Positions 4,497-33,969 of a stretch of 64,000 bases of DNA are shown piece after piece. The position numbers and the translations under genes were made by a program. Source of the stretch: Egibacter rhizosphaerae (GTDB lineage: Bacteria > Actinomycetota > Nitriliruptoria > Euzebyales > Egibacteraceae); the NCBI RefSeq assembly GCF_004322855.1, contig NZ_CP036402.1, positions 2,418,001-2,482,000 of the forward strand, written 5' to 3'. Numbering within the stretch: position 1 is the first letter of the stretch; every line of letters begins with the position of its first letter. The notes below the pieces were generated by a model. The model did no database searches. It saw nothing but the letters and a program-made list of their open reading frames with translations, and was not told the origin of the DNA.

Positions 4497-4552
4497 CTCG
4501 CTCATGCGCGATCCTGGCACTGAGAGAGCTTCGACGCGAAGGAGCGCCCGTC

Positions 4553-5659
4553 GTGGACGCCGTCTGGGTGCAGGTGCTGATCGTGGCCGTCCTGGTGCTG
4601 ATCAACGCGCTGCTGTCGGGCAGCGAGATCGCGCTCATCAGCCTCCGGGAGGGTCAACTGGCCCGTCTCGGTGAGCGCGGTCGGGCCGGCAGTGCGCTCG
4701 CGCGGCTGGCCCCCGATCCCAACCGGTTCATGTCCACGGTGCAGATCGGGATCACGCTGACCGGCTTCCTCGCCTCGGCCACCGCGGCCGTGACGCTCGC
4801 GGAGCCGCTCGTCGGGCCGCTCGCGCCGCTGGGAGCCGCGGCGCGTCCCACCGCGGTCGTGCTCGTGGTGCTCGCGTTGACGTTCGTCGCCCTCGTCGCC
4901 GGCGAGCTGGTCCCCAAACGCTTGGCGATGCAGCGCGCCGAGGCCTGGGGCCTGCTGGCGGCGTGTCCCCTGGCCGTGCTCGCTGCGGTGGCCCGCCCGG
5001 TCATCTGGGTGCTCGGCCGCATCACCGACGCGGTCGTGCGGGCGCTCGGTGGTGACCCCACGCTCGATCGGCAGGCCGTGACCGAACAGGAGCTGCGGGA
5101 CATGGTGGCGGCCCAACCGGACCTGGACGCGCATCGACGGGCCGTCATCGAGGGCGCCTTCGCGGTTGCCGACCGCACGTTGCGGCAGATCCTCGTCGCG
5201 CGCCCGGACATCACTGCCCTGCCCGACGACGCGGACGTCAGCGTTGCAGCGCGTCGACTCGTGGAGACCCGCCACTCGCGCGCTCCGGTCTATGCCGGCG
5301 ACCTCGACCACGTCGTCGGGATCGCGCACCTGCGGGACCTGTACGACGCGACCGGACAGGTCGGCGACGTTGCGCGGCCCCCCGTCGTGCTCCCCGAGAC
5401 CCTCGGAGCGCTCGGCCGTCGGCGAGGGCCTCGCGCTCGGTGGATGACGCCTCGAGGTGGCGCAAGCGAGTGCCCGCCGCATCCACCGCGTCCACCTGGT
5501 CCCGTCGCATCCTCCGGACCCACCGCCGGGCTCCTCCGAGCCCTGACCGCTTGTCCACGCACGCTCAGCTCTCGTCCGGCGACGCCCGCGCGGCCTCCCC
5601 GAGCAGGTCGATCAGCGTCTCGGCGTTGCGCGGCGCGTGGCCCTGGTGGTCGTTGTTGA
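4553..5659 (+). CDS. CNNM/HlyC-like transporter, C-terminally truncated
   Basis: The first 285 residues are a CNNM (DUF21) transporter: membrane helices near 5-25, 65-85, 100-125 and 130-155, the family motif GELVPKRLAMQRAE, and a first CBS repeat (ITALPDDADVSVAARRLVETRHSRAPVYAGDLDHVVGIAHLRDL). These are CorC/HlyC-like proteins associated with divalent-cation export. After VVLPETLGAL (about 5410) the similarity stops: the second CBS repeat and the CorC/HlyC domain are missing, and the last 80 residues are low-complexity sequence antisense to the DUF72 gene. No other frame carries the missing part, so the end was deleted rather than frameshifted. The GTG at 4553 has a GAAGGAG site. Probably a pseudogene. 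Confidence 0.75.
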   Translation: MDAVWVQVLIVAVLVLINALLSGSEIALISLREGQLARLGERGRAGSALARLAPDPNRFMSTVQIGITLTGFLASATAAVTLAEPLVGPLAPLGAAARPTAVVLVVLALTFVALVAGELVPKRLAMQRAEAWGLLAACPLAVLAAVARPVIWVLGRITDAVVRALGGDPTLDRQAVTEQELRDMVAAQPDLDAHRRAVIEGAFAVADRTLRQILVARPDITALPDDADVSVAARRLVETRHSRAPVYAGDLDHVVGIAHLRDLYDATGQVGDVARPPVVLPETLGALGRRRGPRARWMTPRGGASECPPHPPRPPGPVASSGPTAGLLRALTACPRTLSSRPATPARPPRAGRSASRRCAARGPGGRC

Positions 5660-27363: not shown

Positions 27364-28062
27364 CTAGGTTCGAGCCGCCTGAACGCCCCGCCCAGGCCGC
27401 GAGCCCGCGCTGGCGCCGGGTTGCTCGTCCACGGGCCGCGGGGCCGAGAGCTCGAGTACGGCATCGCATCGGCTCCAGATCGAGGGCGTGTGGCTGGCGA
27501 TGAGCACGGCGGCGCCGGCAGCGCTCATCTCCCGTAGCGCGTCCATCACGACGGCGGCGTTGGCGCGGTCGAGGGCACCGGTCGGCTCGTCGGCCAGGAT
27601 CACCGACGGCTGCTTGACCAACAGCCGGGCGACCGCGACGCGCTGCTGTTCACCGCCGCTGAGGTGATGGATCCGCTCGTTCTCGTGTCCCGCCAGCCCC
27701 ACGTGGTCGAGCGCGTCGCGCAAGACCGCGCGTCGCTGCCCCTTGGGAGCCATCGTGACCCTGAGGTTCTCGGCGACCGTGGCGGTCTCGATGAGCGCGT
27801 AGCTCTGGAACAGATAGCCTAGGACGTCGCGTCGGAACCGACGTCGTGCTCGCGGGCCGAAGCGGGTGATGTCGGCGCCGCGGCACAGGATCTGGCCGTG
27901 GGTGGGCCGCTCGAGCAGGCCGATGCAGTTGAGCAGGGTCGACTTGCCCGCTCCGCTGGGGCCGGTCACGGCCAGCATCTCACCGTCAGCGACACGGCAG
28001 TCCAGGTTGGACCACAGTGTGCGCGGGCCGAAAGACTTCGCCAGGCCATTGATCGTGATCAT
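27364..28062 (-). CDS. ABC transporter ATP-binding protein of the bacteriocin locus
   Basis: The 232-residue protein has Walker A GPSGAGKST, the Q-loop FQSYALIETATVAENL, the signature LSGGEQQRVAVARLL and Walker B VILADEPTGALD. It belongs to the MacB/LolD-like group used with large MacB-type or DUF1430 membrane partners. The membrane partner is the next gene upstream on the same strand (13 bp away), and the lactococcin-972-like gene follows that, so the pair probably exports the peptide or confers immunity. The ATG at 28062 has GAGG nearby; GTG at 28071 is an alternative. Confidence 0.92.
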   Translation of the reverse strand: MITINGLAKSFGPRTLWSNLDCRVADGEMLAVTGPSGAGKSTLLNCIGLLERPTHGQILCRGADITRFGPRARRRFRRDVLGYLFQSYALIETATVAENLRVTMAPKGQRRAVLRDALDHVGLAGHENERIHHLSGGEQQRVAVARLLVKQPSVILADEPTGALDRANAAVVMDALREMSAAGAAVLIASHTPSIWSRCDAVLELSAPRPVDEQPGASAGSRPGRGVQAART

Positions 28063-28075
28063 GGACCTCACCCCC

Positions 28076-30169
28076 TCAGGCGTCGGCTGCGTGCTCGGCG
28101 ACGATGCGTCGGTGGATGAGGCCTGTGGTGGCCATCAACAGGGTCGTCGCGACCACCGCGACGCCGGCAGCGGCAGCGAGCTGCCACCAGTCGGCTTGTG
28201 GGAGGTTGGGCGGCGGTGGGACACCGCGCTCGGCAAACTGCTCGACCCGGTTGATCGTCGCCCAGATGCTCTGGCCGACCCACGTCACGAGCGCGCTCGC
28301 GACGAGCGCATCAAGAAGGAACAGTTTCCGGTGGGTGGCCCAGAAGGACCAGCCGCTGACGTGCTTGGCGAAGATGGCCTGGGCGCCGTGACGGCCGTAG
28401 ATGCCAGCCACTGCGAGCCCGGTGACGAACAGCACGAGCACCGCCGTCGTCAGGCTCAGCACGTTGATCCGGCGCTCGTGCATCGCGTCCGCATGCTCGG
28501 CGGCGGCGCGATGGCCCACCGGGGCGAGGCCGGCGACGTGCTCAGCTGACACCTCCTCCCCAAGCGCGGACAACGCGTCGTCACGGTCCGGGAAGATGAT
28601 CCCGTCACTGGTCGCCATCGCCGTGTAATTGGCTGGCGAGGTCACCGACGACCCGTTGGGAACCACGATGACCACGGGATCGTCGACCAGCACCCTGCCG
28701 AGACTGTTGGTGTTCTGCTCGGACTGGAGGGTCGCCACGGTCTGGCCATCCCTCGACCACGCTGGCTCGACGTCGGACACTGGGGCTCCCGCCTGCTCGG
28801 GATCGACGAGCTCCGGCACGCGCTCAACGATGGCGTCGGCGTGGTCCTGCAGCGACTCCGGGATCAGGACCCGCACCGCCTCGTTGTCCCGATCGGGGGC
28901 GTGGCGCTGCCCGGAGGCATCCAGGATGGGCTGCTGCCGGAGGAACGTCTCGTTGACGCGGAGCACGCGGCGCTCTGGAAGGCCGACCTCTGGCAAGACT
29001 TGCGCCATGGGCCACTGATACGAGGCGATGATCTGATCCCGCTCGTCGGCCCGGCGGAGCCACTCGCCGACCTCCTCGGACATGGCCTCTGCTGCCTGCC
29101 GCGTGCGACTGCCGGGCAGCGCCACGTAGGTCGCGTCCTCTCCCAGCGCCGCGAGCTCCTCCTGACTGCCCTCATGTTGTGAGGTCCGCTGCCAGGACTC
29201 CACAGCGCTCTCGCTCAACAGCAGCACCAGCAGTGCCGCGCAGAGCCGCACCAGATAGACGCCCACCATGGACGGCTTGGTCGGGATACCCCCCTTCAAG
29301 GCACGCAGCGCTTTCGTGCTGCTCGCCGCGACGAGCGCCCCCACATGCGCGACCGCGGCGACCGCGCTCAACACACCGGCCAGAGCGGCCGCGACGGCGA
29401 GGAACAAGCCAGCGCGCGCGAACCCGTTGTAGAGAGCCAACACGATCGACGTCACAACCACCACGCCGGCGGCGGCGAACACCCAGAACGGCAGCACCCG
29501 AGCCGCCTCATGCCACAGCATTCGCGGAAACGACGTCCCATGCAGACGCAGCACCGCGTAGTCCCTCGCGCCCAACAGCACGCTGGCCCCGACCGTCAAC
29601 GCTGCCCCGAGGGCCACCACCGCGAACAGCAGCCCGAGGGGAGCCCCGGCCCCGGCCTGGTACAGGAACCGTTGCCTGAGGTCGAACGGCGCCACCACCT
29701 CTCCACTGAGTCCCAGGCCAGTGAGCTCATCCTGCAGGGCGGCGGCGGCCTCCTCGGACCCGTAGACGTGGTAGACGCCGCGGGCATCACCTTGGCTGAT
29801 GGCCTCGAACGCGTGCACGTGGACGTCCATGCGGTGGCCGAAGGGAACGTGGCCCTCTGCCAGCCAGGACGCCGGCGCCGACTCGGGATTGCCTGCCGCG
29901 ACATAAAGGTGCGTCACCGTGTCGGGCTCAGCCGGGTCGGCTTCCTCGCGCACCACCGAGACCCCGTGCGCTCGAGCGAATGAGCTGACAGCCCTGGCTA
30001 CCTGCGCAGTCTCCGCGGAGCCGTCGCTGCCGGTGATCCAGACGTCGCCGTCGCTGCCGAGGACGCGGACGTCGTCGAGGTCTTGCAACGACAGGAACGC
30101 GAAGAGGCTCGACGCGGCGAGCAACACCAGATGGGTGAGCTTGATGGTGCGGTATCGCAGAAGGACCAC
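28076..30169 (-). CDS. DUF1430 bacteriocin-associated integral membrane protein
   Basis: The 697-residue protein has one N-terminal helix (residues 10-27), a 130-residue extracytoplasmic part, a group of four helices (about 175-320), a second large extracytoplasmic part (about 330-560) and a final helix group to the C-terminus (LTTAVLVLFVTGLAVAGIYG, VVATTLLMATTG). This is the layout of the large membrane proteins encoded with lactococcin-972-type bacteriocins. It is flanked by the ATPase gene and the bacteriocin-like gene, and would form the export or immunity ABC transporter with the ATPase. Confidence 0.88.
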   Translation of the reverse strand: MVLLRYRTIKLTHLVLLAASSLFAFLSLQDLDDVRVLGSDGDVWITGSDGSAETAQVARAVSSFARAHGVSVVREEADPAEPDTVTHLYVAAGNPESAPASWLAEGHVPFGHRMDVHVHAFEAISQGDARGVYHVYGSEEAAAALQDELTGLGLSGEVVAPFDLRQRFLYQAGAGAPLGLLFAVVALGAALTVGASVLLGARDYAVLRLHGTSFPRMLWHEAARVLPFWVFAAAGVVVVTSIVLALYNGFARAGLFLAVAAALAGVLSAVAAVAHVGALVAASSTKALRALKGGIPTKPSMVGVYLVRLCAALLVLLLSESAVESWQRTSQHEGSQEELAALGEDATYVALPGSRTRQAAEAMSEEVGEWLRRADERDQIIASYQWPMAQVLPEVGLPERRVLRVNETFLRQQPILDASGQRHAPDRDNEAVRVLIPESLQDHADAIVERVPELVDPEQAGAPVSDVEPAWSRDGQTVATLQSEQNTNSLGRVLVDDPVVIVVPNGSSVTSPANYTAMATSDGIIFPDRDDALSALGEEVSAEHVAGLAPVGHRAAAEHADAMHERRINVLSLTTAVLVLFVTGLAVAGIYGRHGAQAIFAKHVSGWSFWATHRKLFLLDALVASALVTWVGQSIWATINRVEQFAERGVPPPPNLPQADWWQLAAAAGVAVVATTLLMATTGLIHRRIVAEHAADA

Positions 30170-30281
30170 CTCTCTGGATAGCCGCCGGCGGCCATGGCCG
30201 CAAGGGTGACGCCAGCTCGAACAACTCCGGACGCCACCCCTGCGACCCTATCGGTCTTCGCGCCGAACGATACAGATCAAA

Positions 30282-30638
30282 TCAACCACAACTGTTCGTC
30301 CAGAAGGCGCGAATGGTGTTCACACCGTCCCGCTCTACGTCGGCGGTTGCCCAGAGACCAGCCGGCACCCCATGGTCGCGCTGGAAATTGTCTCCCGACT
30401 GCGCGGACGATCCGTGACAGTTCTCCTCGTGGAGATAGTTCGAGTACCCCGAGAACCAGTTCGTGCCATACTGCCAGAGGCCGCCCCCCACTAGCTCGCT
30501 GTTGTCCGCGGGGGCGACCCTGCTATCGGGGTCCATCTCGACTTCGCCGCTGTCGGCCATCGCGGTTCCGGCGCCCCCGATCACAAAAGCTCCAGCAGCG
30601 ACGACTGCAAGGAGGTTGCGGGCGAGTGATTTAGACAT
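30282..30638 (-). CDS. Lactococcin-972-family secreted peptide
   Basis: The 118-residue precursor has a Sec signal peptide (LLAVVAAGAFVIGGAGTAMADS, cleavage expected after AMA) and a mature part with the lactococcin-972 pattern: GGGLWQYGTNWFSGYSNYLHEE (GG.W.YG...), a central CHGSSAQ matching the THGSS motif, and a C-terminal aromatic strand. Two cysteines (CHGSS and the C-terminal NSCG) could form a disulphide, which the archetype lacks. Lactococcin 972 blocks septum formation through lipid II. The location upstream of the DUF1430/ATPase pair supports a bacteriocin-like role; activity is inferred. Confidence 0.85.
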   Translation of the reverse strand: MSKSLARNLLAVVAAGAFVIGGAGTAMADSGEVEMDPDSRVAPADNSELVGGGLWQYGTNWFSGYSNYLHEENCHGSSAQSGDNFQRDHGVPAGLWATADVERDGVNTIRAFWTNSCG

Positions 30639-30843
30639 AAAGCCCTCCGATTCTCGTCCAGCTTCTGCTCATGGTCGACTCTCTTTTGCTCAGTACTCGA
30701 CGTGGTGCTGGGCACGGACTATGTCATTTGCCACCCCCTGTGTGGATTCGTCGATGCGGCGGACAAGACACCCCAATCGGCGCCTCCCATGCATCAGGGC
30801 TGTCGGCTTCTGCGGATCCGTCGAGACATCGAGGCGCGGGCGG

Positions 30844-31029
30844 TCAGTCGTCAAAGAAGGGCCAGTTGCCGCCGCCCTTGCCGGACGTGGCGTCCTCCGC
30901 CATGACCGCGGTTGGCGCTCCCTGGGTGGCCGCCCCGTCCGCCGGGCTCACGGGCTCGATCAGTGGCGTCAGCACCATCGCGAAGGATGAGGCGGCTGCC
31001 GCGACGCTTCGGGGAATCCGGACTGTCAT
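30844..31029 (-). CDS. Small secreted peptide of the bacteriocin locus
   Basis: The 61-residue product begins MTVRIPRSVAAAASSFAMVL, a plausible signal peptide, with candidate cleavage after VSPADGA or later. The mature end is short and distinctive: KGGGNWPFFDD. A GAGAGAGGG ribosome-binding site lies six bases before the ATG, and a TATAAC -10-like box lies about 30 bp upstream. It is the first gene of the minus-strand locus, 205 bp before the lactococcin-972-like gene. I recognise no family. A second bacteriocin component, an immunity peptide or a signalling peptide for the divergent regulator are all possible. Confidence 0.55.
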   Translation of the reverse strand: MTVRIPRSVAAAASSFAMVLTPLIEPVSPADGAATQGAPTAVMAEDATSGKGGGNWPFFDD

Positions 31030-31352
31030 GTCATGCCCTCTCTCTTGGCGTGACTGGCGTTATACCTCGAGAGTCTGGACGTCGACACAACCCGTGTCAA
31101 CCCCGTCAGTAACCGCGGTCATCTCCGTCGCATGGAAGCCTCGCAACCACCGACGTATCGGCGCGCACCGTCACCCATCTGTGTACTTGAGCAGCGACTG
31201 AACTCCTCGCGTAGACGCGACGATGTGCCGTGTGCATGGCGCGACCTCACCACAGTTGTGTTTGTGTTCACGAAGATGACAGAGGCTAGGTTGCGGTGTA
31301 GGCTTACTGTGGTTGTAGTGCGGATCGGTCCCCATGGGTCGGAGCTCTTGAG
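31030..31352. promoter_or_regulatory. Divergent promoter region of the bacteriocin locus
   Basis: This 323-bp stretch lies between the small secreted peptide gene and the XRE/TPR regulator. A TATAAC box (minus strand, 31059-31064) lies just before the peptide gene. ACCACAGT at 31249-31256 recurs inverted at 31306-31313, and the first copy sits inside CACAGTTGTG. The region is markedly less GC-rich than its surroundings. The inverted octamers are candidate sites for the divergent regulator. Confidence 0.5.
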
Positions 31353-32732
31353 GTGCAGCGTCCGGGTGAGGTAGGCGTCAGGGGGCTCGAGCAGCCCTAC
31401 CTGGGACAGCGGCTCCGGCGGCTGCGGATCGAACGCTTCCTGACGCAGCGGCAGGTCGCGGGGCAGGCCATGACCGCCAGCTACGTGTCGCTCGTCGAGG
31501 CGGGGCGGCGCACGCCGACGCTCGACGCGGTGGTGGCGATGGCTCATGCGCTCGGCGTGTCGCTGGGTGACCTGCTCAGCGTGGAAGGGCTGGCCGACCT
31601 TGGCCTGGCCACGGGGGGAATCACTGAACAGGCCCCGCACGCCCGCGACGCCCCGCTGGACACGCTCATCCACGAGTGGCTGGCTGACGACGCCATGCAG
31701 GTGCGCGACCATGCGACCGCGGCGGCCATATTGACGGGGGCCTTCGACAAGGCCCGCGACCGCGGCGACCACCTGGCGGCGATCGCGACGGGCCGACGTC
31801 TCCAGGGGGCGCTGGCCGCTACCAACCAGCATCAGCGGCGCGCAGAGCTGCTGACCGACCTGCTCGACCTCGTCGTCGACCAGCGCTCGGTGGACCTGGA
31901 GGTGCTGGTGCGCAGCGACCTCGCCGGCGCGTTGCGCGACATCGACGACATCGACCGAGCGTTGGCGTGCACTCGTGCGGCCCTGGCCCGGCTGCCGGCC
32001 TCGTCGCTGGCCGACACCTCGGCGTACCTGCGCTTGATGACGGTGCACGTGTCGGTCCTGGTCGAGGCCGACGACCACGACGAATTGCCAGGCGCGCTGT
32101 CCCAACTGGGCGACGCCGTCGACAAGGTCGACAGCGCGGAGCTGAGGGGCCGCGCCCACTGGGTCGCCAGCCGCGGCCATGCCGTGCTGGGCAACGCCGG
32201 CCATGCCAGCCAGCATCTGGCGCAGGCGCATGCCTTGCTGTCGCCCGCCTCCATGCCGCTGCTTGAGTGGCTGCGGTTCTGTCGCTCCGCGGCGATGGTC
32301 GCGCTCGAGGCCACCGACACCGACACGGCGCGGCGATGGGTTGAGGACGCGGACGCTGCCGCCGCGGCACTGGGCGTCGAGGCGGAGCGTCGCGAGGTCG
32401 ACGTGCTCAGGGCCCGGTGCCTGCTGCAGGCCGGACACGCCGAAGCGGCCCGCGACTTCCTCGCCAAGGCGCTCGAGGGCACCGAGCCCGCGCCGGACGC
32501 GGAGCACGCCGGGTCGTTACCCCACCTGACCACACAGTTGTGGCTCCTCCACGCGCAGGCCGCCCACGAGTGCGGTGACACGACCCACGCTGCCCAACTG
32601 CTGCGCCAAGCCGCCGACCACGCGGAGTCCAAAGGCCACTACGAGACGGCACTGCGCGCGCTTCGCGTCCGCGACGCGCTCAACTCCGAGCCGCCTGACA
32701 CCTCGGTGCTCGATGTGTCGGAGTTCCTGTGA
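31353..32732 (+). CDS. XRE-family regulator with TPR-like sensor domain
   Basis: The 459-residue protein has an N-terminal XRE helix-turn-helix (LGQRLRRLRIERFLTQRQVAG, YVSLVEAGRRTPTLDAVVAMAHALGVSLGDLL) and about 370 residues of helical repeats resembling the TPR sensors of peptide-responsive regulators. Such proteins often respond to small peptides or to cell-envelope cues. It is divergent from the bacteriocin-like locus across a shared regulatory region, so local control is likely. GTG at 31353 has GGAG eight bases upstream. An overlapping minus-strand frame is a shadow. Confidence 0.85.
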   Translation: MQRPGEVGVRGLEQPYLGQRLRRLRIERFLTQRQVAGQAMTASYVSLVEAGRRTPTLDAVVAMAHALGVSLGDLLSVEGLADLGLATGGITEQAPHARDAPLDTLIHEWLADDAMQVRDHATAAAILTGAFDKARDRGDHLAAIATGRRLQGALAATNQHQRRAELLTDLLDLVVDQRSVDLEVLVRSDLAGALRDIDDIDRALACTRAALARLPASSLADTSAYLRLMTVHVSVLVEADDHDELPGALSQLGDAVDKVDSAELRGRAHWVASRGHAVLGNAGHASQHLAQAHALLSPASMPLLEWLRFCRSAAMVALEATDTDTARRWVEDADAAAAALGVEAERREVDVLRARCLLQAGHAEAARDFLAKALEGTEPAPDAEHAGSLPHLTTQLWLLHAQAAHECGDTTHAAQLLRQAADHAESKGHYETALRALRVRDALNSEPPDTSVLDVSEFL

Positions 32733-32800
32733 GGAGGGCGCCGACCCCGAGGGCAATCGAGGTGGTTAGGCCACTCGAGTGCGTGGGCGGCGTCGGCCAC

Positions 32801-33852
32801 TCACCCCACGGCTGATGGGGCCACCGCGCGCAGGGCCGGGTTGTGCTCGGCGGGCACGCGCTCGTCCTCCGGCGGCGCCGGCGGGGGCGTGCCCTCCCCG
32901 AAGGGAGTGCCGCCGAGTTCCTCGCGGCCGTGGGGCTGCGCCCATCCGTGCAGGTCGGGGCCCGCCGGCACGATCCCCGAGGGGTTGAGGCCGGTGTGCA
33001 CGAGGTAGTAGTGCTGCTTGATCTGCACGAAGTCGGTGGTGTCGCCGAATCCGGGGGTCTGGAACAGGTCGCGGGCGTAGGCCCACAGGACCGGCAGCTC
33101 CGCCAGCTTCGATCGGTTGCAGCGGAAGTGGTTGTGGTAGACGCGTCGAAGCGCGCGAGGGTCGTGAACAGCCGGATGTCGGCCTCGGTGATGTGGTCGC
33201 CGACGAGGTACCGCTGGTCGGCCAGGCGATCCGAGAGCCAGTCGAGGCGGTCGAACAGCCGTTGGTAGGCGTCCTCGTAGGCGGCCTGACTGCCGGCGAA
33301 CCCCGCCTCGTACACACCGTTGTTGACGTCGCGATAAACCAACTCCGCCACGCCCTCGATCTCGTCCCGGCGGTGCTCGGGGTACAGATCGGGCGCGCCC
33401 GACCGGTGGTGGGCGCGCCACTGGGTCGACAGGTCCACGGTGATCTGGCGGAAGTCGTTCGTGACGACCTGCCCGGAGGGGACGTCGACGATGGCGGGCA
33501 CGGTGATGCCCCGGTCGTAGCCGGGTTCACGCGCCTCGAAGGCCTCGCGCAGCCGGTGGATGCCGAGGACCGGATCGACCTCCCCGGGATCGAGGTCGAA
33601 CTTCCAGCTGCGCCAGTCGTGGGTGGGGGCGGCGATGCCCATCGGCAGTGCGTCCTCCAGCCCCAGCAGGCGGCGCACGATCACCGCGCGGTTGGCCCAC
33701 GGGCACGCGCGTGCCACCACGAGCCGGTAGCGGCTGGGCTCGACCGGCCACCGCGCCTGGGGGTCGTCGAGGATGCGGTCGCTGAGGTAGTTCGTGTCGC
33801 GCTCGAAGCGACCGTCGTCGACCGTGGCGGTCGTGCCGCGTTGTTCGCTCAT
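32801..33852 (-). pseudogene. Glutathionyl-hydroquinone reductase-like gene with a frameshift
   Basis: Two frames together encode one omega-type GST (YqjG/ECM4-like): the first runs from ATG 33852 through VVARACPWANRAVI, the Cys-Pro active-site motif, to DIRLFTTLARFDA; the second continues VYHNHFRCNRSKLAELPVLWAYARDLFQTP to 32801. The switch occurs at 33142-33148, where adding one G (GCG-GTC in place of GCGTC) restores the frame. The family reduces glutathionyl- or mycothiol-type quinone conjugates. A single missing base in an otherwise well-kept gene can be recent inactivation or a sequencing error. A GAGG site precedes the start. Confidence 0.85.
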
Positions 33853-33969
33853 CGCCTCGAGCCTAGCCGTCGGCGGACTCGACCATGCATGCCGACCCAC
33901 CATGACCGTGACCGCGCCTGGCCTGCTGCCGGGCACAGGAGCGCGCCACGAGCGCCGAGTCCACGGTGT

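Follow-up and report, generated by a model that had tools for sequence, protein, structure and literature searches.

A likely RRNPP-like propheromone and cytosolic receptor pair beside a lactococcin-972 operon in an actinobacterial genome

In the RRNPP systems of Firmicutes, such as NprR-NprX, PlcR-PapR and Rap-Phr, the receptor is a cytosolic TPR protein, which in NprR and PlcR also carries an XRE helix-turn-helix. Adjacent to the receptor gene lies a small gene, whose product starts with a signal-like sequence and ends in a short tail. Related designs are found in the Rgg/SHP and ComR/ComS systems of streptococci, whose very short peptide genes, divergent or adjacent, specify products with a hydrophobic body that ends in an aromatic tail. 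The RRNPP_Detector paper (PMC10075063) presents the signals of actinobacteria as small molecules made by enzymes, and oligopeptides of the RRNPP type as a Firmicutes trait. TPR regulators are also described in actinobacteria, among them the NsdA family and the XRE/TPR regulators of Streptomyces biosynthetic clusters, but neither the papers nor the models searched name a peptide linked to them. Here we analyzed a 64-kb stretch of DNA (the window) from an actinobacterial genome consisting of a single 4.64-Mb contig, and consider it likely that it carries an RRNPP-like propheromone and its cytosolic receptor, attached to and probably controlling a lactococcin-972 bacteriocin operon. The open-access literature searched contained no published description of such a peptide/regulator pair in Actinomycetota.

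On the minus strand the order of transcription is a 61-codon gene, a lactococcin-972 precursor, a membrane protein and an ABC ATPase, with an XRE/TPR regulator divergent from them. An ORF check recovered all five frames named in the first-pass annotation and placed the small ORF first in the locus. The bacteriocin part of the locus is ordinary. The precursor (30282-30638, minus strand; 118 aa, with a signal peptide and two cysteines) reached 57.3 bits against PF09683 Lactococcin_972 (cut-off 22), which places it in the family by domain, and 31.1 bits against TIGR01653, slightly below the cut-off of 32.1. The ATPase (27364-28071, minus strand; PF00005, 119 bits) had L_ocin_972_ABC (TIGR03608) as its best NCBIfam model, at 210.6 bits and under the cut-off of 254.9. 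The bacteriocin-associated membrane protein (28076-30169, minus strand; 697 aa, an exporter or immunity permease) matched TIGR01654 bact_immun_7tm weakly (47.6 bits, E 8.5e-13, cut-off 189) and gave no match to the Pfam DUF1430 model. In pairwise comparison these two proteins reached 62% identity (ATPase) and 49% identity over 696 residues (membrane protein), in both cases to Actinomadura formosensis (L084). The 25 comparison loci came from a scan of GTDB species representatives and belong to Actinomadura, Nocardiopsis, Streptomyces, Kocuria and others; the order precursor, membrane protein, ATPase is kept in most of them, as in the lactococcin 972 operon of Lactococcus. The known gene order claimed earlier for the locus is therefore borne out, and the name DUF1430 for the membrane protein stands by order and homology but not by model. 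The two cysteines, previously remarked on as absent from the archetype, are indeed present but not special, being common in the actinobacterial family (8/9 and 9/9 aligned members), and we rejected them as a novelty. Single-protein scans and the precursor alignment yielded no usable patterns or loci.

The small gene (30844-31029, minus strand; 61 aa) is probably real, judging by its sequence features. As had been noted at first reading, it has a ribosome-binding site of its own, which is a good one (AGAGAGAGGGCATGAC-ATG, six bases ahead of the ATG), and a signal-like start, MTVRIPRSVAAAASSFAMVLTPL. Its product would be a small secreted peptide ending in GKGGGNWPFFDD; the codons for this tail and the stop lie at 30844-30882 (minus strand) and are the proposed source of the mature signal, the exact processing being a prediction. 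GC content by codon position is 0.65/0.61/0.84, and among 194 ORFs of similar size in the window just 2% reach its coding log-odds. It is improbable, in our judgement, that the ORF is untranslated and its Trp-Pro tail a chance occurrence. Its 61 codons are few, its codon signal is weaker than in the regulator and membrane protein genes, and its sequence is unique: direct searches found no relative in plasmids, viral contigs or its own genome, and in a phylum sample gave only weak matches to low-complexity stretches. Against this stand the ribosome-binding site, the high GC at third positions and the coding score, together with the fact that the ORF lies at the position and in the orientation predicted from the regulator family described below, where control windows yield such an ORF in 0.5% of cases.

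Three roles had been proposed for this peptide, namely a second bacteriocin component, an immunity factor or the signal of the regulator, and the third is the one that our comparison supports. No relative of the small ORF was present at the 25 other lactococcin-972 loci (best chance match E 0.085, on the wrong strand), so that conservation of the frame in syntenic loci, the check suggested by the first-pass annotation, failed in 0/25. That check was the wrong one, as the small gene is tied to the regulator rather than to the bacteriocin. The regulator family was also absent from 57 lactococcin-972 stretches (the 25 loci and 32 further ones, most of them short); unlike the window, the lactococcin 972 loci otherwise examined have neither the peptide gene nor the regulator, and the combination of the pair with lactococcin-972 occurs at this locus alone among those scanned. 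A secreted-looking peptide encoded upstream of the precursor and in the same orientation would suit a second bacteriocin component or an immunity peptide, but we give this very little credence: no relative accompanies the precursor, membrane protein and ATPase where these are mostly kept, and small ORFs of the same design lie beside relatives of the regulator throughout the phylum, in loci free of the bacteriocin.

The regulator (31353-32732, plus strand; 459 aa) was rightly described at the outset as divergent and as carrying a TPR-like sensor. It matches the XRE helix-turn-helix model PF13560 with 47 bits, and full-length relatives are found in Streptomyces and, by profile, in the rest of the phylum. 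Against the family profile it scored 425 bits (E 3.4e-127, positions 2-397 of 405), a profile built from nine rows that include the window protein itself; an independent single-sequence match gave 29-32% identity to two members (L039 and L041), and identity to the other family members compared was 18-26%. In the tree it groups, on a long branch, with the Streptomyces members whose peptides carry IDWP and with L242, whose peptide carries GNWPDPM. No NCBIfam model names the family, and the NsdA model weakly matched 13/52 members. An AlphaFold2 model obtained with 52 family sequences as input (mean pLDDT 87.3, pTM 0.78) has an N-terminal helix-turn-helix followed by a long run of helix pairs, that is, a TPR superhelix. 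Its Foldseek matches include PlcR-PapR (E 1.5e-4), ComR (6.4e-4), RapF and NprR, and the fold Z scores were 22.4 for a phage Rap with its pheromone, 20.7 for NprR-NprX and 23.9 for the eukaryotic TPR adaptor LGN. Profile comparison placed RapJ and PlcR among generic TPR proteins; similarity to the RRNPP receptors was seen in the helix-turn-helix and is otherwise confined to TPR repeats or fold, and there is no close sequence relation to the receptors of the Rgg and ComR systems. The modelled fold fits a cytosolic peptide receptor, as a compatibility and not a proof, the matches of the TPR superhelix being generic.

The relation between regulator and peptide became apparent when the surroundings of the family were compared. 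Upstream of 23/62 family regulators, the window counted, and no more than about 0.9 kb away, lies a small ORF whose product starts with a hydrophobic, signal-like stretch and carries Trp-Pro in its C-terminal tail; such an ORF occurred in 7/1318 control windows of the same loci and on the downstream side of 1/62 regulators. With the window's own pair left out, the Fisher p of this association is about 3e-26. This value overstates independence, the regulators being related to one another, and the Trp-Pro motif had been spotted in the same data ahead of the counting. Among the 400 dipeptides, WP ranked first at the tail position, with 23 cases (the next had 13 and the median was 1). The pattern extends over six family-level groups, Streptomyces and at least five others, and in 16 of the 23 cases ORF and regulator diverge, the arrangement also seen in the window. 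Loci of XRE regulators outside the family, used as a negative control, had a WP-tailed hydrophobic ORF in 3/39 cases, none of them resembling a signal-peptide precursor. About two thirds of the family regulators are without such an ORF under this strict filter. That WP-tailed small ORFs accompany this regulator family is well supported, and the small gene of the window, with its upstream position, hydrophobic start and WP near the C-terminus, is likely a member of the group.

The tails vary around the common core. In Streptomyces they have the form I/L-D/E-WP (SIEWP, PIDWP, SIDWP, VIDWP, AIDWP, DIDWP), and elsewhere they read ANWPKH, ANWPHH, AGWPKH, AKWPWG, APWPPCC, PTWPHC, APWPHCC or FPWPK; the GNWPFFDD of the window is identical to no other tail found. 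The L242 precursor holds TIGNWPDPM or a near-copy three times, and IDWP occurs two or three times in the precursors of L166, L167, L168 and L175. Such repetition of the tail is a typical feature of Phr-type pheromone precursors. None of the Pfam models fits the peptides tested. By analogy with the known systems, the WP-tailed small ORFs are likely pheromones. The RRNPP systems of Firmicutes resemble these pairs in the adjacent small gene with its signal-like start and short C-terminal tail, in the tail repeats of some precursors and in the cytosolic TPR receptor, and the window has both a putative receptor that combines TPR repeats and an XRE helix-turn-helix and an adjacent gene for a short propeptide with predicted export. 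The actinobacterial pairs differ in belonging to another phylum, in the Trp-Pro core of their tails and in being mostly divergent. Some members of the group are only 28-36 residues long and in this recall the streptococcal SHP and ComS peptides, whereas the end of the window tail is acidic (FFDD). In addition, a hypothetical protein of the Streptomyces globisporus plasmid SGLP1, WP_158514079.1 (L082, 4846-5013, minus strand), ends in EVEWP and has an internal EDVEWPF; its sequence and its location about 1 kb from an XRE/TPR regulator make it a candidate pheromone precursor. Beside another family regulator (L046), a divergent small ORF at 4519-4686 (plus strand) ends in DRYPWR, possibly a variant of the Trp-Pro tail, so that the peptide family may exceed the count given by the WP filter.

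According to the mechanism that we propose, the 61-residue product would be a precursor that gives rise to a short, linear peptide pheromone. Its hydrophobic signal sequence would direct export, and trimming would leave a short peptide around GNWPFFDD that holds the Trp-Pro core. This peptide would build up with cell density, re-enter the cell through an oligopeptide importer and bind the TPR superhelix of the divergent XRE/TPR protein, which would act as both receptor and transcription factor; binding would alter the contacts of the regulator with DNA in the intergenic region and thereby switch the peptide gene along with the bacteriocin operon that follows it. Export, processing, import, binding, the direction of regulation and the control of the bacteriocin are steps that we infer. 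The pair of the window would then be one case of an actinobacterial family of RRNPP-like Trp-Pro pheromones and TPR receptors. With less confidence, yet still on the favourable side, we propose that a widespread class of linear peptide pheromones built around Trp-Pro, as yet without a name, exists in Actinomycetota, each paired with a cytosolic XRE/TPR receptor encoded next to it, and that one such pair has here captured a lactococcin-972 operon, which would make the bacteriocin density-controlled.

Control of the operon by regulator and peptide is plausible from position, namely from adjacency in one genome. The operon comes immediately after the peptide gene, lies on the strand of that gene and is separated from it by no terminator-like site, and among the 66 genomes of the class both the lactococcin-972 gene and the full-length regulator occur in this one only, other matches to the regulator in the class being partial; such coincidence is expected of a joint arrival. 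These observations argue against the reading that the pheromone pair is genuine but its neighbourhood accidental, with the bacteriocin operon regulated independently, which we hold to be unlikely. That reading draws on the gap of 205 bp between small gene and precursor, with room for a separate promoter, on the absence of the regulator family from the scanned lactococcin-972 stretches (0/57), and on the unrelated genes that adjoin the pair at the other loci examined. A search of 30150-31400 for sigma-70-like promoters and for terminators found none, a result that says little for an actinobacterium.

If the proposed pheromone-receptor relation is correct, a family of peptides and receptors spread over Streptomyces and at least five further groups at family level would amount to a second signalling language in Actinomycetota. 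In Streptomyces, biosynthetic genes are found close to some of the pairs, which would allow synthetic tail peptides to be tried directly for switching silent clusters; the prediction is cheap to test, each tail being short and linear and easily read off the sequence.

Possible control sites were also found. Upstream of the regulators of the Streptomyces branch, the palindrome TGGCAA-N4-TTGCCA occurs 13 times in 32.5 kb, against 13 times in 338 kb elsewhere in the loci, a tenfold enrichment (L044, L047, L166, L168, L175, L177, L178 and others) that suggests autoregulation and makes it the probable operator of this branch. This palindrome was looked for in the region of the window and is absent there. 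The gap between the small ORF and the regulator measures 324 bp, more than in most family members, and in it, before the peptide gene, lies another palindrome, GACACAACCCGTGTC (31084-31098), the sole exact GACAC-N5-GTGTC in the window and a candidate operator. The GC content of 30000-31500 is 64%, against about 71% around it, which may reflect acquired DNA or merely small genes and intergenic sequence. Lastly, a glutathione-S-transferase-type gene (PF13410, 47 bits) lies at 32680-33936 and 32801-33421, both on the minus strand, and seems to be broken by a frameshift, its N-terminal part and a plausible C-terminal part being read in different frames.
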